A DNA stretch of 64,000 nt, taken from Polyangiaceae bacterium (GTDB lineage: Bacteria > Myxococcota_A > Polyangia > Polyangiales > Polyangiaceae). The notes under the pieces were generated by a model. It did no database searches. It was not told the origin of the DNA and was given only the letters and a program-made list of their open reading frames with translations. The stretch covers positions 1-64,000 of the forward strand of contig CANJMI010000021.1 of the NCBI GenBank assembly GCA_947475525.1, written 5' to 3'. Position 1 is the stretch's first letter, and each line of letters starts with the position of its first letter. Both the position numbers and the translations under genes were made by a program. This document shows positions 1,776 through 17,789 of the stretch, in pieces.

Positions 1776-3473
1776 TCAAGGCCCGAGGCCAGTGACCCGG
1801 TCCGCGCGCGCCCGAGAGTGACCGTCGCAGTTGGCTCCACTCTTTTCGTCACCGAGCTGGCCGCTCGCGCCGCAGCCCCAGCAGTAGGCGTTGCCGTCCG
1901 ACGCCACGACGCAAGTGTGTGTCGAGCCCAGAGACGCGTCCTTGACGAGGCCCGTTGGCAGACCCTCGACGATCCGAGGTTTGCCCGGTTGAGGCGCCGT
2001 GGGCGAGGTGGCCCCGAGCTGCCCAAAGCGGTCGTCTCCCCAACACTGGAATTGCGGGAGCGTTTTTCCAATCGGCGTGATGTCCGCGCAGGCGATGCCG
2101 CCTCCCGCGTAGACCGACTGAGGCTCTCCGGCCGCGAACACCAGGGTGGCCAGCTGGAGGGCCCCTGCTTTGTTGGATGGCATCGCCCCGAGTTGCCCGT
2201 GGTTGTTCGCACCTACGCCGACGATGAAGTTGCCACCGGCGTGGCCATAGCGAATGAGGTGAAAATCTCCGACACCGGACGAGTCACCGCTGCGCGAGCT
2301 TACGATCGCAAGCGGCACGGCGTTCTGCATGTTCGTGGCGACCCCGGTCCAATTGAATAGCAAAATGGGTAGAGATTGAGACGCTTGGTCCGGGAAGAAT
2401 TTTTGGCATTGCGGCACACTCGTGGCACTCGGCAAGTTGCCTGAAATGAAGCACCACTCGTCGCGCCCGGTGCCGAAACTTACGTACGGCACAGTCGGGC
2501 GACTTATGAAGGCCGCCGTGTTGCTTCCCCAGCATTCGTACTGGGTTCCGCCTTCGTCGCCGCAGACGACCGTGGCCGCTGCCGAGAGGCGTGTCACCGG
2601 CGCCTTAGGCTTGGGAAGTAGAGTGGGCTTGCCCATTGAGTCGCTGAAGCGTTTCCCCCAGCACATCACGGTGCCGTCTTTAAGTAGGGCGCACGAGTAA
2701 TCGAAGCCTGCGACGACCTGCGTCGCCCCGACCAAGTTAGGTACATCGAAGGGCACGAGCGACTGGGCCATGCCGGACGCCGGCACGCCGAGTTGTCCGT
2801 CCGTATTGTCGCCCCAGCACCGAACCGTGCCGTTTCTCAGGACCGCGCAGCTGTGGCCCGCGCCGTTGGGGGTGTCGAATCCGGCCGCAACCGAGAGCAC
2901 ACCGTCCGAGGCTTGCGCCGCCGTTTCAGTGAGGCTCGCGTCGTCGCAATTCGTGCCCTCGGGACACGTTGCGTCGGTGCAGACCCCTTCGACGCAGGTG
3001 GAGTTCGGGTCACACGGATTGCCTGAACAAACGCTGCGAAGCTCGACCATAAGCGTGTGCGGCTGGTGCTCGATGAACCGGAGCCTGCGGCGCGCCACGA
3101 TGCAGCCCACTGGCTTCGCGGGGTCGGCGCTCGGCTTGAGGTCTTTGCCGTAGCCGCTCGTTTGGCCGCACGCGTCGAGACCGACGTTGCGACTTGCGAC
3201 CACCTTCACGCCGAACTCCGCGGATCGGTCGCCATGCGGCACGACCACGAGCGTCCCGAGCGTGCCTTCCTTGCAGGTGACCGCCTCGGTGCTCGCGTCG
3301 CGCGTCTCGAGTTCGGAGGGGATGCCGACCGTGATCGCAACGCCGCCGAGCTCGTCGCAGGGGACATCCGTTACGAGCGTGAGCGTCACCTGCGTCGGGG
3401 CAAGGCAAGCCTCGCTAGCACCTAGAACGATGAGTACCCAGAGCGCGAGGCGAGTGGGGCTGCCGACGACCAT
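1776..3473 (-). CDS. RCC1-repeat lipoprotein
   Basis: 565 residues from ATG 3473. The signal peptide ends in a lipobox (GASEAC), so the protein should be lipid-anchored and exported. Residues about 25-160 form a beta-rich domain with paired Cys. A short Cys-rich stretch (CSGNPCDPNSTCVEGVC) follows. From about residue 195 come RCC1/alpha-tubulin-suppressor repeats, recognised by HSCAVLRNGTVRCWGDN, CALLKDGTVMCWGK, FQCWGDDRFGQLG and HTCVVASDGNAYCWG. Such repeats build a seven-bladed propeller and usually bind proteins; secreted versions are common in myxobacteria. No enzyme function is visible. The gene stands alone, with a non-coding stretch upstream. Confidence 0.9.
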   Translation of the reverse strand: MVVGSPTRLALWVLIVLGASEACLAPTQVTLTLVTDVPCDELGGVAITVGIPSELETRDASTEAVTCKEGTLGTLVVVPHGDRSAEFGVKVVASRNVGLDACGQTSGYGKDLKPSADPAKPVGCIVARRRLRFIEHQPHTLMVELRSVCSGNPCDPNSTCVEGVCTDATCPEGTNCDDASLTETAAQASDGVLSVAAGFDTPNGAGHSCAVLRNGTVRCWGDNTDGQLGVPASGMAQSLVPFDVPNLVGATQVVAGFDYSCALLKDGTVMCWGKRFSDSMGKPTLLPKPKAPVTRLSAAATVVCGDEGGTQYECWGSNTAAFISRPTVPYVSFGTGRDEWCFISGNLPSATSVPQCQKFFPDQASQSLPILLFNWTGVATNMQNAVPLAIVSSRSGDSSGVGDFHLIRYGHAGGNFIVGVGANNHGQLGAMPSNKAGALQLATLVFAAGEPQSVYAGGGIACADITPIGKTLPQFQCWGDDRFGQLGATSPTAPQPGKPRIVEGLPTGLVKDASLGSTHTCVVASDGNAYCWGCGASGQLGDEKSGANCDGHSRARADRVTGLGP

Positions 3474-4193
3474 AGCGCCAACGCTACCACGCGGAACACT
3501 GCAACATGCCTCCGAGCTGACCTTGACGCCGGCGCATGCGCTTCAGAGCGCGCACCCTGCTGCGTCGAAGGGCCACCAGCGAAGCTCTCCTAGAACGGAA
3601 CGCATTGAAGTGCAGGGCAACTCCGCTGCGACCGAGTGAACTCGCGTTCGGCAAGCCGCTCTGTGCTGCGCTTGACGGGTTCACCCTTCACCGTCCTTCA
3701 CCTCGCCACGCGCCCAGAAACGCTCGTCACCGCTGGCCGAGAGAAGCTGCGCTGCTACGCGTTGCGCTGGCCGGTCGCGTAAGAGCGGGTTGAGTTGTTG
3801 CCCGAGAAGGTTGTGCTCATCGTGCTCGAGCGCCCCTACGCCAGCGGTACTCGCCGTGGCGAGCACGTTGTGGCTTTTCGCGCGTGCGTTCGAAGTACGT
3901 CAATCTACGCAAGCGCGAGTTCACGCCAAATAAAACGTCCGTTCTGTTCGATAATCAAAGAATGTACTTCGTGCGGTGACTACAGTTGCCAAAGTCACCT
4001 GCCATCCACGTTCCAGGTTCGACCTCGCTTGTACTTGGCGTGTAGACGTTCGCGGCCGGACCCATCCTCTCAAGTAATCCCGAAAAGTTCACGGAGCCTC
4101 GCATGTTCCCGAAACACATTGGCGGACGCCGTCGTGGGCACGACGAGCTGGTCCTCGCGGGGCGCGGCGATCACAAGGTGCCAATGAAGCCAC
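3474..4193. other. long intergenic stretch without a supported gene
   Basis: About 720 bases upstream of the first modular lipoprotein gene. The open frames here lack convincing composition, signal peptides or recognisable motifs. The centre (about 3880-4030) is noticeably less GC-rich than the flanks. The only element I can support lies at its right end, the inverted repeat at 4194-4221. Confidence 0.4.
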
Positions 4194-4221
4194 TGACGTA
4201 CTGGCATTATGAGCGACGTCA
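4194..4221. promoter_or_regulatory. inverted repeat TGACGT-N16-ACGTCA upstream of lipoprotein A
   Basis: TGACGT at 4194-4199 and ACGTCA at 4216-4221 form a perfect 6-bp inverted repeat with a 16-base spacer. The same arms and spacer length occur at 5843-5870 upstream of lipoprotein B. Downstream in both copies lies a similar stretch with ACTTGAC followed by AACCC about 40 bases before the ATG, which may be the -35 region. An operator or activator site is inferred, not shown. Confidence 0.45.
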
Positions 4222-4290
4222 GAATCCGGCTCTGGGAGGCCCGCTTTTACTTGACTAACCCATAGGTTGGTTAGTACTGCACCCCCCCCA

Positions 4291-5523
4291 ATGAAGTTCC
4301 GAGCCTCCCGTATTTCCAAGTCAAGCCTTCTCGTTCTCTTCGCCGGGGCGCAGGCAGCTTACGCCTGCAATAGCGTGGAGACCGGAGGCTCAACCGGTGC
4401 CAACGGTTCGACGACCGCCACGACGAGCACGGGCGGCCCAACGTCGGCGACGACCTCAACCACCTCAACCACCTCGACGACTGGCGCGGGTGGCGCGGGT
4501 GGCGCGGGTGGCGCGGGTGGCGCGGGTGGCGCGGGTGGCGCGGGTGGCGCGGGTGGCGCGGGGGATTGCGCCTTCGTACTCGCTGGGTCGACGAAAACGC
4601 AGATTGCCAACGGCAACGGTGAACTCGCGTGTGACGCCGCGCACTACGCGGGCACGGTCTCGTACACCTGCGAGAACGGTACGTTCACGGCAGCCGGCGC
4701 GTGCGCGTGTGCGGTCGGGTACTCGGGCGCCACCTGCCAAACACCTGGCGCTAGCAACAGCGAGGCCAACTCTTTCATTGTGGCAGCAGGCATAGCCGAT
4801 GCGACACAATCGGCGGCGATTGATACGCTCGTGACGGGTTTGAAGACAGACGACCTCTGGACCAAACTAAAGGCCGCTTATCCATTTGTCGGTGGAACGC
4901 AACAATCGCATAAATTCAATCTGAAAGATCCGCGTGATCTCGACGTGGCGTTCAGGCTCGTGTTTTCGGGTGGCATCACGCATGACGCCAACGGAATCAC
5001 CGGGAACGGGGCGGATGGTTGGGCCAACACCTTCATCGTGCCGAGCGTTGAATTGGCGACGAGCGGCTCGGCGATTGGTGTCTATTCTCGTTCGCCAAAC
5101 AATGGGCAAAGTACTGAAATTGGCGTTTCGTCGAACTCGAATTTACCCATCCTGGGCCTAACGACTCGGAATGTAAACGGTGACACCTTCTTCGACGGAT
5201 ACGACTACGACACGCACCGACTTGTCGTCTCGAATCCGGACGGAAATGGTCTGTACGTCGGAAGCATCGAAAACGCGACGAGCCAGCGCCTTTTCAAAAA
5301 CAACAGCGAAATCGGGGTGGTTACCGCTCCGCAAACTCTAGGGCCGCCGAACACTTATGCGATCGCGGTGCTGGCACGAAACGATGCCGGGAACCTCGTG
5401 AACTTTTCAACGCGAAACCTCGCATTCGCATTCGTTTCAGACGGATTGAGCGTCGCGAACGTGGCGAACCTTTACGCGCGCGTTCAGGCGTTTCAGACAA
5501 GTTTGTCGCGCTCTGTCATGTAA
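4291..5523 (+). CDS. modular lipoprotein A (shared N-terminus, phage-like C-terminal domain)
   Basis: 410 residues from ATG 4291; this start is chosen over an upstream TTG because the paralogue at 5938 begins at the same codon. The signal peptide MKFRASRISKSSLLVLFAG ends in lipobox AAYAC. A Thr/Ser linker and a GAG repeat (residues about 65-91) follow, then a small Cys domain ending in CACAVGYSGATC, EGF-like in pattern. From about residue 155 the protein switches to a domain with FVGGTQQSHKFNLKDPRDLD, LVFSGGITHDANG and a C-terminal VQAFQTSLSRSV. I recall this as a LamG-like domain common in phage and metagenomic structural proteins. That assignment is from memory. Function is unknown; probably surface display. 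Confidence 0.75.
   Translation: MKFRASRISKSSLLVLFAGAQAAYACNSVETGGSTGANGSTTATTSTGGPTSATTSTTSTTSTTGAGGAGGAGGAGGAGGAGGAGGAGGAGDCAFVLAGSTKTQIANGNGELACDAAHYAGTVSYTCENGTFTAAGACACAVGYSGATCQTPGASNSEANSFIVAAGIADATQSAAIDTLVTGLKTDDLWTKLKAAYPFVGGTQQSHKFNLKDPRDLDVAFRLVFSGGITHDANGITGNGADGWANTFIVPSVELATSGSAIGVYSRSPNNGQSTEIGVSSNSNLPILGLTTRNVNGDTFFDGYDYDTHRLVVSNPDGNGLYVGSIENATSQRLFKNNSEIGVVTAPQTLGPPNTYAIAVLARNDAGNLVNFSTRNLAFAFVSDGLSVANVANLYARVQAFQTSLSRSVM
4483..4563 (+). repeat. 9-bp tandem repeat (ggcgcgggt) in lipoprotein A
   Basis: Eight exact copies of ggcgcgggt plus one degenerate copy, encoding Gly-Ala-Gly units in the linker. The unit is a multiple of three, so copy-number change alters linker length without a frameshift. 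The paralogue at 5938 has a shorter, less uniform version at about 6121-6171. Confidence 0.95.
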
Positions 5524-5610
5524 TTCGCCGCAGAACCGCGAACGAACAAAGGGAACGGTCCCTAGGTATTTTAAAGCTGTAAAAACCTCCCCATCGGGCA
5601 GGTACTCGTC

Positions 5611-5820
5611 TCAATCGTGCGCGAGCAGGACGGTTGCGGAAGCAGCAGCCTGCTCGGCGGCGAGGTCGAAGCACTGAAGGCCATTCCGTCGTTGCCATGT
5701 GCCAGCGTTTTCGTTGCCGGAACGCTTGTTTTCGCCATGGGCATCATCGGAACGACGGCGTCCGCGAGCCCGCTTGTGGCTTCGTTCGAAATCTCTCTCT
5801 GAAGCGAGTCCCCGGGGGCC
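5611..5820 (+). pseudogene. chimeric relic: 3' end of a 7703-type gene joined to 3' end of lipoprotein B
   Basis: Bases 5611-5676 are nearly identical to 7703-7768, the last part of the small minus-strand gene, starting exactly at its stop codon. Bases 5671-5820 are nearly identical to about 7536-7685, the last 42 codons of lipoprotein B plus the bases after its stop. The two homologies meet at a shared gcact (5671-5675). The order is the reverse of that at the intact locus. The reading frame of the lipoprotein tail (ending ASASPLVASFEISL) is still open to 5802 but has no signal peptide or promoter of its own. It is best read as a rearrangement scar. Confidence 0.8.
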
Positions 5821-5842
5821 GGCGTCACGTGCGACGCGCCAC

Positions 5843-5870
5843 TGACGTACCGCCATCATGATCCACGTCA
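5843..5870. promoter_or_regulatory. inverted repeat TGACGT-N16-ACGTCA upstream of lipoprotein B
   Basis: TGACGT at 5843-5848 and ACGTCA at 5865-5870, the same arms and 16-base spacing as at 4194-4221. The spacer is only partly conserved, suggesting the arms are what is kept. A TTGACA-like sequence lies about 35 bases further on, before the ATG at 5938. Confidence 0.45.
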
Positions 5871-5937
5871 GAATTCGGTTTTGAGGGGCTTGGTTTGACT
5901 TGACAACCCGATAGTTTAGCGGTACGCGCGCACCCCT

Positions 5938-7665
5938 ATGAACTTCCGAGCCTCCCGTATTTCCAATTCAAGCCTTCTCGTTCTCTTCGCCGGGGCGCAG
6001 GCGGCTTACGCTTGCAATAGCGTGGAGACCGGAGGCTCAACCGGTGCCAACGGTTCGACGACCGCCACAACGAGCACGGGCGGCCCAACGTCGGCGACGA
6101 CCTCAACCACCTCGACGACTGGCGCGGGCGGCGCGGGTGGCGCGGGTGGCGCAGGTGGCGCAGGTGGCGCGGCGGATTGTGACTTCACGCTCGCGGGGTC
6201 CACGCAAACGCAGATCGCGAACGGCAACGGTGAGCTCGCGTGTGACGCCGCGCATTACGCGGGCACGGTCGCGTACACCTGCGAGAACGGCACGTTCACG
6301 CCAGCGGGCGCGTGCGCGTGTGCGGTCGGGTACAAGGGCGAGGCCTGCGGCACGTGCGACACGGGGTACGACGCCGAGGGTGACACTTGCATAAAGAGCC
6401 CGTTGGGCTCGTGGGGTGGGCCCGGAAACCCCTCATCGAGCACGCTGATTGGCGGAATCGCTGCTACGGAGCCGCTTTTCACGCGTCACCTGTCCATTGT
6501 TGAGGGTTCGGTCTCCCTCACACCCGACACGGCCGGATTCGCGGCTTCAGGGTCCTTCACCGTTCCTGGCGGAGTCACAAGCCTGACGGCGTATGTGCTT
6601 GGTGCGGGCGGCGGCGGTAAAGGCGACTTTAGCCCTGGTGGCGGCGGCGGCGGAGCGGCGAAGCGGACGTTCGCAGTAATGCCGGGTGATATCATCCCCT
6701 TCATGGTTGGCGCAGGTGGCATAGGCTCCACCGGGGGTGGCTCCACTGATGGCGGCGACTCAACGCTCAACTTCGGGGCCGTCAGCCTCGTTGGCGGTGG
6801 CGGGATAGGCACTGTTGGGGGAACGGCGACTGGCGGTGACGTGAACGTGCCAGGCGGAGATGCACACAAGAGTGGCACCAACGTGAGCGGTGTCTGCAGC
6901 TCCGGCGGTGGCGCACCGCCCATCGACGACGGGCTCGTTCACTACGTCGTTGGGCCGGCGGGAGGCTGTTACCCAGCGGGCTCTGGAGGCTACGGTATTG
7001 CACAGTGGGGCCTTGTCGATACGGGCCCGGGGTTCTACTCGGCAGATCCCGGCGGCTGGCTCAGCCAGCCTGGCGGCCATGGTCTCGCTTTCGGAGGCGG
7101 CGGGGCAGCGGGCGGAAACTACTCTGGTCGCGGTGGCGACGGCGGAGGCGGCTACGTGTTCTTTTCGTGGGCCGCAGCCGCTCCCGTTTACCCAACCATC
7201 CTCGGAACGGCGGTCACGGCAAGCGCGCAACTCGACACGAGCGCCTGGGCGTCGGTCGTGGGCATCACGCCAAAGGAGACTCTGAACGGCGGCTCAATCT
7301 CGTATGCGGTCTCGTTCACGAACCGCGCGTCGTTCGTCATTCACAACGGAACGACGTGGCGGACGGTGATGAAAGGCTTCATGCCGAACACTCAGTCCGT
7401 CGGCTCCTACGAGCTGCAGTACAACAGTGCTACGGTGTACGGCTCCGAGACCTGGACCCGCTGCACCGAGAGCATCCTCACGGCGTGCTACGAGCAGGCC
7501 CTTGGTGTAGAGGCCAACCGCTTGAGCGGCGCCGCACTCAAGGCCATCCCGTCGTCGGCGTGGGCCAGCGTTTTCGTTGCCGGAACGCTCGATTTCGCCA
7601 TGGGCCTCAGCGGAACGACGGCGTCCGCGAGCCCGCTTGTGGCTTCGTTCGAAGTCTCTCTCTGA
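5938..7665 (+). CDS. modular lipoprotein B (shared N-terminus, glycine-rich C-terminal region)
   Basis: 575 residues from ATG 5938. The first roughly 130 residues are nearly identical to lipoprotein A: signal peptide, lipobox AAYAC, Thr/Ser linker, GAG repeats and the Cys domain. It then adds CGTCDTGYDAEGDTC and, from about residue 200, a glycine-rich domain opening FTVPGGVTSLTAYVLGAGG with AKRTFAVMPGDIIPFMVG. This resembles glycine-rich tail-fibre and adhesin domains. A beta-rich C-terminal domain (about 415-575) carries two Cys and ends ASPLVASFEVSL; its last part is the one found as a relic at 5671-5802. Function is unknown. The pair looks like one exported scaffold that has exchanged its distal domain. 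Confidence 0.78.
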   Translation: MNFRASRISNSSLLVLFAGAQAAYACNSVETGGSTGANGSTTATTSTGGPTSATTSTTSTTGAGGAGGAGGAGGAGGAADCDFTLAGSTQTQIANGNGELACDAAHYAGTVAYTCENGTFTPAGACACAVGYKGEACGTCDTGYDAEGDTCIKSPLGSWGGPGNPSSSTLIGGIAATEPLFTRHLSIVEGSVSLTPDTAGFAASGSFTVPGGVTSLTAYVLGAGGGGKGDFSPGGGGGGAAKRTFAVMPGDIIPFMVGAGGIGSTGGGSTDGGDSTLNFGAVSLVGGGGIGTVGGTATGGDVNVPGGDAHKSGTNVSGVCSSGGGAPPIDDGLVHYVVGPAGGCYPAGSGGYGIAQWGLVDTGPGFYSADPGGWLSQPGGHGLAFGGGGAAGGNYSGRGGDGGGGYVFFSWAAAAPVYPTILGTAVTASAQLDTSAWASVVGITPKETLNGGSISYAVSFTNRASFVIHNGTTWRTVMKGFMPNTQSVGSYELQYNSATVYGSETWTRCTESILTACYEQALGVEANRLSGAALKAIPSSAWASVFVAGTLDFAMGLSGTTASASPLVASFEVSL

Positions 7666-7681
7666 AGCGAGTCCCCGGGGG

Positions 7682-7696
7682 CCCCGCGACGCGGGG
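7682..7696. terminator. hairpin between convergent genes
   Basis: CCCCGC (7682-7687), loop GAC, GCGGGG (7691-7696): a perfect 6-bp GC stem between the stop of lipoprotein B (7665) and the stop of the minus-strand gene (7703). There is no T run. Its position suits a bidirectional terminator. Confidence 0.45.
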
Positions 7697-7702
7697 AGCG
7701 GG

Positions 7703-7999
7703 TCAATCGTGCGCGAGCAGGACGGTTGCGGAAGCAGCAGCCTGCTCGGCGGCGAGGCCGAAGCACTCGCGTAGGAGCCCGGTGGCGCCGTCGTGGTCCT
7801 TCTGTTCAACGACCGCACGAAGACCCATCGCCTTGATCACGAATTGCGGATCCGCAGCCATTTTCGCGACAAATGCGCTCGTGGCGGTGGCTGCGGTCGG
7901 CGCGTCGAGCCCGAGCAGCGCGGACAACACCTGCGCGGCTCGTTCGTGCTCAGTGGCCATGATGGCGCCTGCGAAGTCGCGGAAGGTTACCTTGCTCAT
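7703..7999 (-). CDS. hypothetical small soluble protein
   Basis: 98 residues from ATG 7999 (MSKVTFRDFAGAIMATEHER); an upstream ATG at 8017 would add six residues. The product is Ala-rich, predicted mostly helical, with no signal peptide, membrane segment or Cys pattern. I do not recognise a family. The last roughly 22 codons are duplicated at 5611-5676. It converges on lipoprotein B across a hairpin. Confidence 0.6.
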   Translation of the reverse strand: MSKVTFRDFAGAIMATEHERAAQVLSALLGLDAPTAATATSAFVAKMAADPQFVIKAMGLRAVVEQKDHDGATGLLRECFGLAAEQAAASATVLLAHD

Positions 8000-8321
8000 C
8001 GGCGACGCATAACACACGCGGCGGTTTCAACCAGCGCCCGTCCCGCCGTGCGCACTCAGAAGAAACCGGTCAACGAAACGCTGAGTGGCGAGAGCGTCAA
8101 GGAGACGGTCGCGGCGGGGTCCGCGCCAGACGAAGAGCCAACGTGCACCACTGTTTCGGCGGAGCGTGCTTTCAACTCTGAGGGCGCCGGTTGAGGGCTC
8201 GCCCGAGAACACGGGCACAAGGCCCCCGCGGCTGGCGCGCCTGCACGAAGGGAGCAGGATTGCCACAACACTCCACCTTGCCTTAAGCCGCTGACTCGCC
8301 TAACTCTCGCCGAGAAATCCG
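8000..8321. other. divergent intergenic region
   Basis: About 320 bases between two divergently transcribed genes; it must hold both promoters. I see no clear -35/-10 pair, repeat or RNA structure. Confidence 0.3.
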
Positions 8322-9335
8322 ATGAAAATACCACGCATCCTGTCGATCATTGTCGCGCTCTTTTTTGTCGCTTTGCCCGCCCGTGCCGAGACGGCGACTG
8401 TGCGCCTCGGCAACCCGGAGATTCAGCGTTTGATGGGCGATACCTTGGGCTCGGTGCAGATTACTGCGAGTAGCGGCCCGGGCGGCGCTATCACGTTTCG
8501 GCTGCCTGGGGGCCAAACCATCAACTCGCCTCTTCGTCTCCCCGTGGTGACCATTCCCGCGCCCGACCCCTTTCCCGGGCTCGTCGCCACCACGACGATG
8601 CTGCGCAGCCTTGGAACGCCGACGCTCACGTACGCGAACGGCCGCCTGCGCGTCGCCCTGGTGCTTCGGCCTGACGACAGGATTCGCACGATCACGACCA
8701 ACTGGACGAGCAGTTCGATTTTCCTGCCCGATCCCCCGGACCTTGGTGTCCAGCAGATCGTGATTAACGCAAGCTTCCGGCTTGGACGGCAGGGGAACCA
8801 GGTTGTGGCGGAAGATTTCCAGGTCGTCGTAGGGGCCGTCTGGCAGCTGCCCGGACTGTTGAACGCGCTTTCGTCGACCATCAGCCCGATCATCAATCGA
8901 GCCGTCTCGGAGTCCATGGCCGACCTGTTACGGCAGCGCGTCGAGTTGCTCGTGCGCTTGAGCATCGCGCCCTATCTCCTCCAGGCGACCGGCTACTCGT
9001 CGCCGTTGCAGTTGGACTCGATTGCTCACAACGCCGATCACATTGCGCTGGCTGTCACTGGACACCACCAGCGACCGCCCGTGGATCTTACCGCCTTCAA
9101 CTTGGCGCTGTCGATCGATCCGAGCGCACTCAAAGCGGGCCTTGAACAAAGCAAGACGCACGAAGCGCAAGCCAAGAAGTCGGCTGAAGATACCGATGAA
9201 AAGAACAACAAGGCCCAAGCTGCGGCAAAGGCGAATGCCAAAGTTCCGCTGACGCCGGCGCAAACGAAAGCCGTGGAGGCCTACAAGAAGGGCGCTGATG
9301 GTGACGGCGGGAACAACAACAAGAAAGGCAAGTAG
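8322..9335 (+). CDS. exported hypothetical protein with Lys-rich C-terminus
   Basis: 337 residues from ATG 8322. The signal peptide MKIPRILSIIVALFFVALPARA ends in an AxA site and no lipobox, so the mature protein should be periplasmic or secreted. The central 200 residues are predicted beta-rich (strands such as LTYANGRLRVALVLRPDDR) followed by a helical stretch around NALSSTISPIINRAVSESM. That order loosely recalls lipid-binding TULIP-like proteins, but I cannot support it further. The last 75 residues are low complexity, rich in Lys, Ala, Asn and Gln. The stop codon is immediately followed by the hairpin repeat element at 9336. Confidence 0.65.
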   Translation: MKIPRILSIIVALFFVALPARAETATVRLGNPEIQRLMGDTLGSVQITASSGPGGAITFRLPGGQTINSPLRLPVVTIPAPDPFPGLVATTTMLRSLGTPTLTYANGRLRVALVLRPDDRIRTITTNWTSSSIFLPDPPDLGVQQIVINASFRLGRQGNQVVAEDFQVVVGAVWQLPGLLNALSSTISPIINRAVSESMADLLRQRVELLVRLSIAPYLLQATGYSSPLQLDSIAHNADHIALAVTGHHQRPPVDLTAFNLALSIDPSALKAGLEQSKTHEAQAKKSAEDTDEKNNKAQAAAKANAKVPLTPAQTKAVEAYKKGADGDGGNNNKKGK

Positions 9336-9563
9336 CCCTCGATTCGTTCGAATCGAGGCGCAAGTAAACAGCCGTACCTGAGTCGATAGCATCGCAACTC
9401 GATGGGCAACTCGGTGTCCTCGCGAAATCGGGGACGTCGAGTTGCCCATCGTTTCGATGGACTCGGGGTACTAGTCCTCGATTCGTTCAAATCGAGGCGC
9501 AAGTAAACAGCCGTACCTGAGTCGATAGCATCGCAACTCGATGGGCAACTCGGTGTCCTCGCG
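9336..9563. repeat. dispersed hairpin repeat element, copy 1 (one full unit plus a truncated unit)
   Basis: The unit begins one base after the stop codon. Hairpin 1 is CCTCGATTCG (9337-9346) with CGAATCGAGG (9349-9358). Hairpin 2 has an outer stem (TACC-T-GAGTC at 9375-9384 with GACTC-GG-GGTA at 9460-9470), a 14-bp inner stem (9400-9413 with 9438-9451) and an apical GTCC/GGAC. A second unit starts at 9475 and is cut off at about 9563. The same element occurs at 17575-17789. Confidence 0.9.
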
Positions 9564-14027: not shown

Positions 14028-14455
14028 TGATCAATCGTACCTGACATTGAATGACACCCGACAAGTTCTTGGTGTTGATGTGCGCTAGCCACGCGGCTTC
14101 ATGGACAGGCTCGTCTCACGAAGCGCCCGCGGCGAAACAAGCCGACCGATTCAACGGCCTCGGCCTCGGCCTCGGCTTCGGTGACCTTCACTTGGCCACA
14201 ATGATCTCATGGCTCACTCAATGAGTTCATGCGCCGCTGGCCCTTAGGTTCGACGCGTACAGTTCTGGGAAGGCTTCGCTTATGGGCCTTTGACGCAGCA
14301 GGTCCGCACGAACTTGCACCTTCGCAAATTTTAAGGCCAATTAGCAGCAACAAGCCAAGGCGAGGGCCTTCGCTTTTAAGTCTCTCGGCGGTCGCCTGCT
14401 AGCTCGCGCGCGGCTCTAAGAGCGCCTTCAAATGTGGTACAAAAGGATTAGGACG
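14028..14455. other. divergent intergenic region
   Basis: About 430 bases between divergent lipoprotein genes. It contains a short run of ggcctc-type triplets at about 14156-14178 and a lower-GC stretch at 14310-14350. No gene, RNA or clear promoter was recognised. Confidence 0.35.
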
Positions 14456-15403
14456 ATGCGACTCGGAACGATGTTGGGATGGTTGGCTGCGGTTTCACTC
14501 GCTGGGGCGGCGTGCAGTTCTCCGAACTCCGGCAACCCGACGGGCGCGGGGGGCGGCGCGAGCGTGGCGACGGGCGCGGGGGGCGGCGCGACCGTGTCGA
14601 CGTGCGACGGGCTTGCGAAGGTTGTGTGCGACAAACTCGACGCGTGCGCGCCGACCGTCATCGAGCTCCTCTATGGTTCGGTGGCGCACTGTTCCGAACG
14701 CCTGGCGCTCGGGCTCTGCGCGAGTTCGGCCGGCGTCGACTTCGCGGCCTGTGGCACGGACTACGCGACCCTATCGTGCGACGCCATTTTCGCCAGCGAT
14801 TCTGCGCCCGCGGGGTGCGTTTCAACGAACGCTGCAGCCGACGGTGCGCCATGCGGCGACGACGCCGAATGCAAGAGTTCGCACTGCGTGAAGGGAACCG
14901 ATCCGGCCTGCGGCACCTGCGAGGCCAAAGTCGCCGCGGGCGGGGCTTGCGGCATGGTGGATCAGGTCTGCGAGAGCGGCTTCACCTGCCTTGCGGACAC
15001 GTGCACGAAGTTAAAGCCGCCCGGGGATGCCTGCGCGGCGACCGACGAGTGCTCGGGCGCGCACGTGTGCATCGGGGGCAAGTGCGGCGCTCCGCCGACC
15101 GAGGGGGAGGCCTGTGCGCAGGACATCCGCTGCTCCCCCTTCGAGGCGATTTTCTGTTCGCCGAAGACCAACACGTGCAAGGCGGTTGGGCTTGCGAACG
15201 TCGGAGAATCTTGCGGCTACGACATGGCGGGCGACAAAATCACGGCCTGCAAGGTGAGCGATTGCGCCGTCGACGATAAATGCGTCGCGCCACTCAAGGA
15301 CGGTGACGCCTGCATGACCGGTCCGAACCAACCGAGCTGCGAGGCGCCGGCCGAGTGCCTGCAGGGCAAGTGCACGCCGCCGATGGCCGATACGTGTAAG
15401 TAA
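14456..15403 (+). CDS. Cys-rich lipoprotein with disulfide repeats
   Basis: 315 residues from ATG 14456, chosen over ATG 14432 because it gives a compact lipoprotein signal (MRLGTMLGWLAAVSLAG, lipobox GAAC) with AAGGA upstream. The linker is GAGGGA-rich. Residues about 45-120 form a helical Cys domain; about 130-315 hold repeated four-to-six-Cys modules of the form DG-C-x-C-x-SxxC (GAPCGDDAECKSSHCV, GGACGMVDQVCESGFTC, GDACAATDECSGAHVC, GESCGYDMAG). Such modules fill many myxobacterial secreted proteins and probably stabilise an elongated stalk. No catalytic motif is seen. Confidence 0.82.
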   Translation: MRLGTMLGWLAAVSLAGAACSSPNSGNPTGAGGGASVATGAGGGATVSTCDGLAKVVCDKLDACAPTVIELLYGSVAHCSERLALGLCASSAGVDFAACGTDYATLSCDAIFASDSAPAGCVSTNAAADGAPCGDDAECKSSHCVKGTDPACGTCEAKVAAGGACGMVDQVCESGFTCLADTCTKLKPPGDACAATDECSGAHVCIGGKCGAPPTEGEACAQDIRCSPFEAIFCSPKTNTCKAVGLANVGESCGYDMAGDKITACKVSDCAVDDKCVAPLKDGDACMTGPNQPSCEAPAECLQGKCTPPMADTCK

Positions 15404-15416
15404 GCAACTGCGAGGA

Positions 15417-15863
15417 ATGGCGATGAGCGAACGCGTAGCCAACATGATGACACGCGGACTCGTGACGGTGTCGCCCGACGCGACTTTGCTCGACGCCCAA
15501 CGCTTGTTCGCCTTGCACCGCTTCCACCACCTTCCGGTGGTGGAGGGTGACGCCCTTGTCGGCGTCTTGTCGGACCGCGACATCCTGCGCGCGCTGTCAC
15601 CGTTTCTCGACACGCTCGCGGAGCGCACCCAAGACCTCGACACGATGCGGCGGCACGTTCACGCGGTCATGTCGCGCAAGCTCGTTACCGTCGACACGGA
15701 GGCCGAGGTCGCCACGGCCGCGCAGCTGATGCTGACTCACCGAGTTTCGTGCTTGCCGGTTCTCCAACGGGGAAAGCTCGTCGGCATCCTCACGACGCGC
15801 GACATGTTGCGCAGGGTGGTCGGCGGCGGCTCCAGCACCGTGCGAGCAGCGCGGCTGCCGTGA
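15417..15863 (+). CDS. CBS-domain pair protein
   Basis: 148 residues from ATG 15417 (ATG 15423 also possible). It consists of two CBS domains in tandem: MTRGLVTVSPDATLLDAQRL with HHLPVVEGDALVGVLSDRDI, and MSRKLVTVDTEAEVATAAQL with SCLPVLQRGKLVGILTTRDM. A CBS pair usually binds AMP, ATP or related nucleotides and acts as an energy or redox sensor. There is no attached effector domain. It is cytoplasmic, unlike its neighbours, and starts 13 bases after the preceding lipoprotein gene, so co-transcription is possible. Confidence 0.92.
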   Translation: MAMSERVANMMTRGLVTVSPDATLLDAQRLFALHRFHHLPVVEGDALVGVLSDRDILRALSPFLDTLAERTQDLDTMRRHVHAVMSRKLVTVDTEAEVATAAQLMLTHRVSCLPVLQRGKLVGILTTRDMLRRVVGGGSSTVRAARLP

Positions 15864-16125: not shown

Positions 16126-17574
16126 ATGCGCTCCGCGCGTCCGTCCTTCGTTGCACTCTCGCTCTCATTCGCGGCGTGCACCGGCTCTCAGCTCGGGTCC
16201 GAAAGCGGCGGCCGTGGCTGCAACGCCGGCGGCGCGAATGATCAAGTCAAGGCGCCCGGGAACGCACCGGGCGGCGTTGACCTCGCGTACGGAGACATCG
16301 CCGTCTCGCCCGATGGAAGTTACGTCGTCTACGACCACGCAGCCACGCTCGCCGTCGCGTGGACCAAAACAAGTCTCGTCGAGGCCTTGCCGCTCGAAGA
16401 GCCGAGTCGCCTCGGTTTCGCAAAGGATCGGCATGTCGTCTACGTGAGCTCGACGAAGGACGGCGCTGTCCACGCGATCGACGTCGATTCAGCCACCCAA
16501 CTGTGGTCGTCCCCGCTCGGCGAATACGCGGATGGCTTTCTTGCCGTCGCCGAGAGCGATACCCGGCTCGTCTTCGCCGCGTCGAAGCGCCTCTGGGTGC
16601 TCGATGCCAAAGATGGTCATGTCCTTCATGACCTCGCGCTCTCTTCGCCGCCGGTCGATCTCAAAATCCTCCCCGATGACGAGCGCGTTCTCGTCGTCGA
16701 GCAGCACACGTGGCCGCCCGCTGTCGTGCCTGGCTCCGACGCGCCAACGGCGAACACCATTGTTCACGTACTCGACATGGCGACGGGTCAAGACCGCGTG
16801 ATTTCGGTGCCGAATTGCAGCGATGACATCGTGGTTACCGGCGACGGAAAGATGGCCTTCCTCGCGCCTACGTCGTGCTCGAAGGACCCTATCAGCGTCA
16901 TCGACCTCGTCCCGGGCAAGGAGGCCTTTCGGAAAAACCTGCCCGGATTCGGTCCGGTTGTCCTCGCTCCAGACGGTGTCACCGCCGTCGGTTTTCTCGA
17001 TCGAGCGCAGGCCGACGCGAGCCTCTTCGACGACCCGAAGCTCCTCCCCGCGAAGGGCGCGTATCACCTCATGGTGATCGATACGCCGACGCTTCAGTAT
17101 GCATTCTACGAATACGGCGACATTCGTCCCCGTTATGCGCTTTCGCCCAACGGCAAGGCGCTGCTTGTCGATGAGTCAAACGGCCTTTCGGGCATTTCGC
17201 GCGCGCGCCTCTTCGACATGGAGATGCGCGCCTTCGAAACCATCGAGGGACCTGCGATTCAGTTCGAACAGGTGGCTCTCTCGAGCGACTCCGTGCACGC
17301 GTACGTTCTGTCGAACGCTCAACTGACGTCCCGCACGCGTGGTCGTGGTCGCCGCGGTGCCGCGAACGGTACTGACTACGGGCTCTACGATCTCGAGCTC
17401 GACGCCGCGAAGGTGGCCGAGGTGCCGCTCGACTTCCGACCCGTGAACGTCAACATCGCCCCGGACGATGGAAGCCTCTTTTTGCGCCGAAATCCTCGTG
17501 AGATATGCCTCTTCTCACTCACGTCGAAGAGCTGCGAGCGCGAGCTCAAGCTCGACGTGACCGCGGTGAACTAG
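16126..17574 (+). CDS. lipoprotein with beta-propeller-like repeats
   Basis: 482 residues from ATG 16126 (MRSARPSFVALSLSFAAC), chosen because it gives a proper lipoprotein signal; the frame is open from 16060. The mature part has repeated blocks such as DIAVSPDGSYVVYDHAATLAV, HAIDVDSATQLWSSPLG, VLDAKDGHVLHDL, MVIDTPTLQYAFY and ALSPNGKALLVDE, typical of YVTN/PQQ-like beta-propellers. A basic RTRGRGRRG loop interrupts the sixth block. No ligand residues can be identified. The stop codon is followed at once by the hairpin repeat element at 17575. Confidence 0.75.
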   Translation: MRSARPSFVALSLSFAACTGSQLGSESGGRGCNAGGANDQVKAPGNAPGGVDLAYGDIAVSPDGSYVVYDHAATLAVAWTKTSLVEALPLEEPSRLGFAKDRHVVYVSSTKDGAVHAIDVDSATQLWSSPLGEYADGFLAVAESDTRLVFAASKRLWVLDAKDGHVLHDLALSSPPVDLKILPDDERVLVVEQHTWPPAVVPGSDAPTANTIVHVLDMATGQDRVISVPNCSDDIVVTGDGKMAFLAPTSCSKDPISVIDLVPGKEAFRKNLPGFGPVVLAPDGVTAVGFLDRAQADASLFDDPKLLPAKGAYHLMVIDTPTLQYAFYEYGDIRPRYALSPNGKALLVDESNGLSGISRARLFDMEMRAFETIEGPAIQFEQVALSSDSVHAYVLSNAQLTSRTRGRGRRGAANGTDYGLYDLELDAAKVAEVPLDFRPVNVNIAPDDGSLFLRRNPREICLFSLTSKSCERELKLDVTAVN

Positions 17575-17789
17575 ACCCTCGATTCGTCAGAATCGAGGGG
17601 TAAGTAAACAGCCGTTCCCGAATCAAAAGCATGGCAACTCGATGGGCAACTCGATGTCCTCGCCAAATCGGGGACGTCGAGTTGCCCATCGGTTCGATGG
17701 ATTCGGGGAACTAGACCCTCGATTCGTCAGAATCGAGGGGTAAGTAAACAGTTGTGCCCATCGGTTCGATGGATTCGGGGAACGAGACC
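17575..17789. repeat. dispersed hairpin repeat element, copy 2 (one full unit plus an internally deleted unit)
   Basis: Hairpin 1 is CCCTCGATTC (17576-17585) with GAATCGAGGG (17590-17599). Hairpin 2 has an outer stem (GTTCCC-GAATC at 17614-17624 with GATTC-GGGGAAC at 17700-17711) and the same 14-bp inner stem (17640-17653 with 17678-17691) as copy 1. Outer-stem bases differ from copy 1 in a way that keeps the pairing. A second unit at 17715-17789 lacks the middle. It follows a stop codon directly, as at 9336. Confidence 0.9.

Follow-up and report, generated by a model that had tools for sequence, protein, structure and literature searches.

The window analyzed here is a stretch of 64,000 nucleotides from a Polyangiaceae bacterium (positions 1–64,000 of contig CANJMI010000021.1, assembly GCA_947475525.1; here C21:1-64000), whose genome (G000) comprises 5.15 Mb in 59 contigs. 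At 4194–7665 it carries two tandem genes that share one front and end in unrelated, phage-related distal parts, referred to as tips. The reading that we favor, by a little more than an even chance, is that the genes encode outer-membrane lipoprotein stalks with exchangeable phage-tail-related tips, which are replaced by recombination and are probably glycan-binding. A mosaic history of the genes is well supported; a ligand and a function can be suggested.

According to this proposal, a signal peptidase II signal, a flexible linker, and a cysteine-containing (Cys) collar would form an anchor in the outer membrane, and the lipidated anchor, linker, and collar would hold the phage-type tip outward. 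A gene with tip 2 would have been duplicated in tandem, after which tip 2 of the upstream copy would have given way to tip 1 through a recombination event close to where the Cys domain ends, with the old 3′ end staying behind as a relic. Tips would also have travelled between lineages, placing the same three tips behind a collagen-like anchor in another genus. The tips may bind surface glycans on prey, particles, or kin, in which case a change of tip would alter the binding target.

Common Front and Abrupt Change of the Distal Part

The features of the two genes are as follows.

4291–5523, + strand: gene 1, 410 residues from ATG
5938–7665, + strand: gene 2, 575 residues from ATG
4194–4221, + strand: inverted repeat TGACGT-N16-ACGTCA upstream of gene 1, putative regulator site
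5843–5870, + strand: inverted repeat TGACGT-N16-ACGTCA upstream of gene 2
4291–4368, + strand: signal peptide of gene 1, lipobox Cys (residue 26) at its end, by a PS00013-like pattern
4369–4563, + strand: linker of gene 1, Ser/Thr and (GGA)n, from the sequence and linker repeats
4564–4737, + strand: Cys domain of gene 1, 58 residues, epidermal growth factor (EGF)-like by weak sub-threshold Pfam matches, from alignment A1 and boundaries
4738–5523, + strand: distal domain 1 (tip 1) including the stop codon, predicted phage-type jelly roll, from viral relatives, model, and fold matches
5938–6015, + strand: signal peptide of gene 2, lipobox Cys (residue 26) at its end, by a PS00013-like pattern
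6016–6174, + strand: linker of gene 2, from sequence comparison with gene 1
6175–6348, + strand: Cys domain of gene 2, from alignment and boundaries
6349–7665, + strand: distal part 2 (tip 2) including the stop codon, from Pfam, PHROG, and viral relatives
from 6349, + strand: first piece of distal part 2, a short second Cys segment
about 6550–7170, + strand: middle of distal part 2, a glycine-rich domain (Pfam Gly_rich_2, E 3e-5)
about 7177–7635, + strand: C-terminal tail-fiber-type domain of distal part 2 (22 viral relatives)

The sequence-only reading had described two genes with a common inverted repeat, signal peptide, linker, and Cys domain, and they indeed share these at about 90% DNA identity (promoter 78%). 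BLASTN pairs 4189–4737 with 5838–6348 at 83% including linker indels (E 8e-171); the ungapped identity is 78% over 80 nucleotides of promoter, 91% over 247 nucleotides of signal and linker, and 89% over 229 nucleotides of linker and Cys domain. Most genome-wide DNA matches are confined to linker of the GGCGCGGGT type. The differences between the two fronts lie almost all at third codon positions, which suggests that both are maintained by selection. The inverted repeat occurs only twice in the whole window, against a chance expectation of 0.05, and likewise precedes both copies in the sister species (G001). The front and Cys domain together measure 137–149 residues. In the EGF-like assignment of the latter, EGF_Teneurin and EGF_laminin scored only below the curated Pfam cut-off.

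The likeness ends within a few codons of 4738/6348, and BLASTP detects no similarity between the two distal parts (best E = 18), bearing out the abrupt switch to unrelated C-terminal domains that had been claimed. Tip 1 has a G+C content of 55%, versus 69% in gene 1's own front and Cys part. A third paralog lies elsewhere in the genome (G000:C8, around 49.8–50.3 kb) and carries a glycine-rich tip, the C8 tip. The PS00013-like lipobox pattern is matched in all three genes, and on the criterion of a lipobox signal peptide their products are predicted to be bacterial lipoproteins. In the C8 paralog region (L059 on G000:C8, 5037–7140 and 7585–9558), a glycosyltransferase family 28 gene adjoins, and a VgrG-like baseplate gene comes next on the opposite strand.

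Phage Kinship and Predicted Fold of the Tips

Both distal domains had been likened by their motifs to phage tail or metagenomic structural domains, and the kinship with phage tails is now substantiated by viral relatives, phage gene contexts, and predicted fold. Tip 1 shares 42% identity over 108 residues with a Flavobacterium phage FL-1 protein whose gene immediately follows that of the putative portal protein. A profile search found relatives in 89 viral contigs, mostly at 35–46% and up to 49% identity (E 9e-58), and most of them align over residues 2–258. In viral proteins the domain is mostly a C-terminal module on many differing N-termini. At one viral locus (L105) it sits between the portal and the holin/endolysin genes, at another (L138) it adjoins tail and other virion genes, and in a Bacteroidia genome it stands among genes that, by reading of the genes only, appear phage-derived. 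Six viral loci (L101, L124, L127, L131, L138, and L144) encode the domain twice in tandem within one protein, with a GTQTV-type joint between the two.

The predicted model of tip 1 (predicted local distance difference test, pLDDT, 94.9) is a concanavalin A-like jelly roll. It superposes on Caudovirales proteins with a template modeling score (TM-score) of up to 0.95, and more loosely on experimentally solved jelly-roll structures, a good number of which bind glycans, at E 1e-7 to 1e-6 with a query TM-score of about 0.4–0.57. Sequence and predicted fold place it in the family of the phrog_17104/phrog_26223 type. Tip 1 is a member of a domain family, not a phage gene: its gene lies outside any phage structural cluster, among window neighbors that encode an RCC1-repeat protein, an acyltransferase, and other bacterial proteins. 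Matches to botulinum, sialidase, and CBM40 structures were set aside as the common jelly-roll fold, with no sign of a toxin.

Distal part 2 matches phrog_863 (E 1e-4). Part of the last 150 residues of gene 2 matches 22 viral contigs, near the C-termini of long proteins; this stretch aligns with eight viral proteins at E of about 1e-18 to 1e-9, two of which score as tail fiber in PHROGs. By these matches the C-terminal domain of gene 2 is related to the C-terminal part of tail-fiber proteins. The viral relatives were found only with a two-sequence alignment as query; distal part 2 alone found none in the viral and phage searches. Modeled without relatives, this part gave an unusable structure (pLDDT 32). 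The C8 tip matches phrog_2295 (1e-46), and a viral scan with an alignment of this tip yielded no confirmed relative. No meaningful match came from a PDB sequence search with distal 1, distal 2, or profile A3, and an NCBIfam search found nothing.

A Relic between the Two Genes

The interval between the two genes holds two pieces copied from the 3′ end of gene 2 and the bases beyond it.

5671–5820, + strand: relic, 93% identical to 7534–7683 (gene 2's 3′ end plus the sequence that follows)
5611–5675, + strand: copy of 7703–7767, 98% identical

The sequence-only reading had overlooked this relic as well as the third paralog. The order of the pieces is swapped relative to the originals, with a 5-base overlap (GCACT), as would be expected of a tandem-duplication joint. 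The 11 differences in 5671–5820 are spread over the three codon positions (5, 3, and 3), as in sequence freed from selection. Because a 93% copy of the 3′ end of gene 2 stands behind gene 1, the upstream copy seems at one time to have had the same ending as gene 2; in the simplest history, distal 2 was its earlier end and distal 1 is its present one. Alternatively, a third gene may once have stood between genes 1 and 2 and since been lost, which would leave a similar relic.

The Same Tips behind Another Anchor

By profile search, the Cys domain is present in three of 108 family genomes: the window genome, its sister species G001, and G188, which belongs to another genus. G188 contains four lipoprotein-like genes whose front is collagen-like, with (GAT)n. 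These fronts are mutually 54–71% alike and, save for low-complexity stretches, unlike the front in the window; in the one gene checked, the front contains Pfam DUF7151. One of the genes ends in distal 1 (85% identical to gene 1; the contig stops short of the gene end), one in the glycine-rich C8 tip (69% identical to the C8 paralog), and one in a fourth tip, while the last breaks off inside the Cys domain at a contig end. Distal 2 (66%) is present on a further G188 contig, whose first bases already lie within the Cys domain, so that the front falls outside the contig. All three tips of the window genome therefore recur in G188, two of them visibly on the Cys domain behind a different anchor, so that the tips are conserved, shared parts and the anchors genome-specific. 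A neighboring G188 gene (L077 3192–4394, G188:C314) joins DUF7151 and a collagen-like front to another C-terminus with a CxxCH motif; the front thus serves still more proteins in G188.

The Cys domain of the C8 paralog is 60–62% identical to the Cys domains of its own genome, versus 45% to that of its tip partner in G188, which places the swap joint close to, or exactly at, the Cys domain's end. Where the two genes differ toward that end (about 4720–4740) and G188 matches either, the match is always to gene 1.

In G001, the counterpart of gene 1 adjoins the same RCC1-repeat gene (G001:C411). Its start-codon region has been removed by a deletion, and its distal part stops at about 57 codons, followed by sequence that includes a transposase-like frame. 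A second front on another contig has the same 3′ tail relic and promoter and departs from the common sequence after about 40 codons. Because both genes are broken in this sister species, no rapid between-strain variation is demonstrated. Comparison for other tips, proposed together with the idea that a surface protein diversifies by replacing its exposed part, did reveal a fourth tip in G188, but all three tips of the window genome recur there. Of that idea, the constant lipoprotein front with swapped distal domains stands, and the tips may well be surface-exposed; an open-ended set of new tips is not what was found, the known repertoire being small and shared.

Timing of the Probable Exchange

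Divergence along the gene is uneven, as had been anticipated. Between gene 1 and G188, distal 1 has 85% protein identity and a fourfold-site identity of 0.66 (40/61), versus 64% and 0.29 (6/21) for the Cys domain (Fisher p = 0.005 for the fourfold sites). A change point in third-position identity along the gene is supported by permutation (p about 0.01). For rpoB, the two genera share 71% protein identity and a fourfold-site identity of 0.46. Because distal 1 is more similar than rpoB (85% vs 71%), it was probably exchanged between lineages after the genera split. The fourfold-site identity between the genera is 0.47 for tip 2 and 0.52 for the C8 tip, values that would fit either an older transfer or vertical descent beneath replaced fronts.

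Several observations weigh against exchangeable, ligand-binding tips. The divergence of tips 2 and C8 is close to that of rpoB, which makes exchange between genera unnecessary for these two. The best change point (4896) and one nearly as good (4776) both fall within tip 1, away from the join. The solved jelly-roll matches of tip 1 are distant (query TM-score about 0.5). The family is known from three genomes, each apparently assembled from metagenomes, and several of the contigs end at joints. Lastly, the surface location of the tips and their binding of ligands are what we infer.

Alternative Explanations

The strongest competitor, though clearly less probable than tip exchange, reverses the roles of the parts: three old lipoproteins with fixed tips would have been inherited vertically, while gene conversion or replacement spread one anchor per lineage, so that the front rather than the tip was swapped. 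This would agree with the presence of the same three tips once each in both genera, with fronts alike within each genome, and with the rpoB-like divergence of tips 2 and C8. It fits poorly with tip 1, which is clearly less diverged than rpoB, and with the absence of the Cys domain from 105 of the 108 family genomes; moreover, conversion of fronts alone leaves the relic of the 3′ end of gene 2 unexplained.

An unlikely function for the displayed tip is receptor masking, in which it would occupy the cell's own phage receptor and block phage adsorption. The kinship of the tips with phage tail-tip domains suits this idea, and phage-excluding lipoproteins are known, for example in phage T5 (PMC9586334). 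However, binding of a tip to such a receptor is conjectural, there is no known phage of this host, and the phages in which tip 1 has relatives infect widely differing hosts.

Polymorphic lipoprotein toxins like SitA, with distal parts acting on neighboring cells, are a still poorer explanation and very improbable. The resemblance lies in a lipoprotein with a constant N-terminal and a modular C-terminal part, and in myxobacterial relatives (PMC5562445, PMC8546572). SitA toxins have, by definition, an immunity gene in one operon, and they combine an escort domain of about 375 residues with a C-terminal nuclease (PMC8546572). Here, by contrast, no same-strand gene directly follows either gene (the nearest annotated candidate, 7703–8017, is convergent), Pfam and NCBIfam searches found no nuclease or other toxin domain, tip 1 is a domain of phage structural clusters, and the short front and Cys domain leave no room for a 375-residue escort domain. 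SitA membership was rejected for the missing immunity gene, escort domain, and nuclease, and polymorphic-toxin membership in general for the missing immunity operon and toxin domain.

Least probable of all is an assembly artefact joining unrelated genes via the repeated front: contigs of related genomes do stop inside the Cys domain, so repeats trouble assemblers, but G001:C411 independently shows front and distal 1 joined, next to the same RCC1-repeat gene, Cys domain and distal 1 occur together in G188 as well, and the window's contig measures 103 kb.

Comparison with Known Systems

The closest parallels are the C-terminal modules of phage tail fibers and tail tips (phrog_17104, phrog_26223, and tail-fiber C-termini), which belong to the same domain families by sequence, for tip 1 also by predicted fold, and likewise occupy the C-terminal position on varying N-termini. 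Unlike those modules, the domains found here are part of a bacterial lipoprotein, and no phage gene cluster is visible around them. The pattern also differs from that of a diversity-generating retroelement target, since whole domains differ rather than scattered adenine positions. TraA of myxobacteria has a domain order and an anchor different from those of these lipoproteins. It is alike in being a receptor at the cell surface that combines Cys-rich repeats with a recognition domain that varies; TraA varies by allele within one such domain, whereas here whole unrelated domains are exchanged. The lipoproteins share with the SitA toxins of myxobacteria (PMC5562445, PMC8546572) a constant N-terminal and modular C-terminal parts, and lack their immunity operon, escort domain, and toxin domain. 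In the Rhs and CdiA polymorphic toxins (PMC3482391), C-terminal domains are similarly recombined behind a constant body, and a relic of the older end remains here too, but what is exchanged here is structural domains of phage type, which no immunity genes accompany.

Toxins and phage fibers already provide examples of tips being exchanged on a fixed stalk. In the present case the tips are of phage type and are borne by bacterial lipoproteins; a relic points to one exchange, and the same tips stand behind two unrelated stalks. Literature searches, restricted to open-licence papers and therefore weak evidence, found no paper on this lipoprotein family. More speculatively, and with a good deal less confidence than the exchange itself, bacteria may maintain, and pass among themselves, a limited stock of phage tail-tip domains mounted on lipoprotein stalks. 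These would form a dedicated surface system that recognizes other cells or masks the bacteria's own phage receptors, and the Cys collar would be the joint at which tips are exchanged between unrelated types of stalk. The reuse of phage receptor-binding domains by bacteria for adhesion, recognition, or phage blocking becomes directly testable, and tip 1 offers a handle on the phage domain family phrog_17104/26223, which has no assigned function.

Neighboring Features

The conserved left neighbor of gene 1 in G001 corresponds to 1776–3473 (− strand), an RCC1-repeat protein with a lipoprotein-like start. This stretch and two others (8150–9341 and 14441–15456) have 94–98% DNA identity to G001, versus 65–78% for other tested stretches of the window, and two of the three hold lipoprotein-like genes. 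Recent exchange between the species or mis-binned contigs could explain the high identity. On this contrast in identity, the G001 copies might simply be wrongly binned DNA from the species of the window; the matching stretches, however, do not run colinear with the window, and this explanation, while conceivable, is not needed.

Two copies of an intergenic palindromic repeat, CCTCGATTCGTTCGAATCGAGG ... AACTCGATGGGCAACTCG, lie at 9.4 kb (9336–9562), and the repeat recurs at 17.6 kb (17571–17760). Dozens of related copies are present in G001, and two other genomes of the genus have a smaller number. The repeat resembles a dispersed element of the repetitive extragenic palindrome (REP) or miniature inverted-repeat transposable element (MITE) type.

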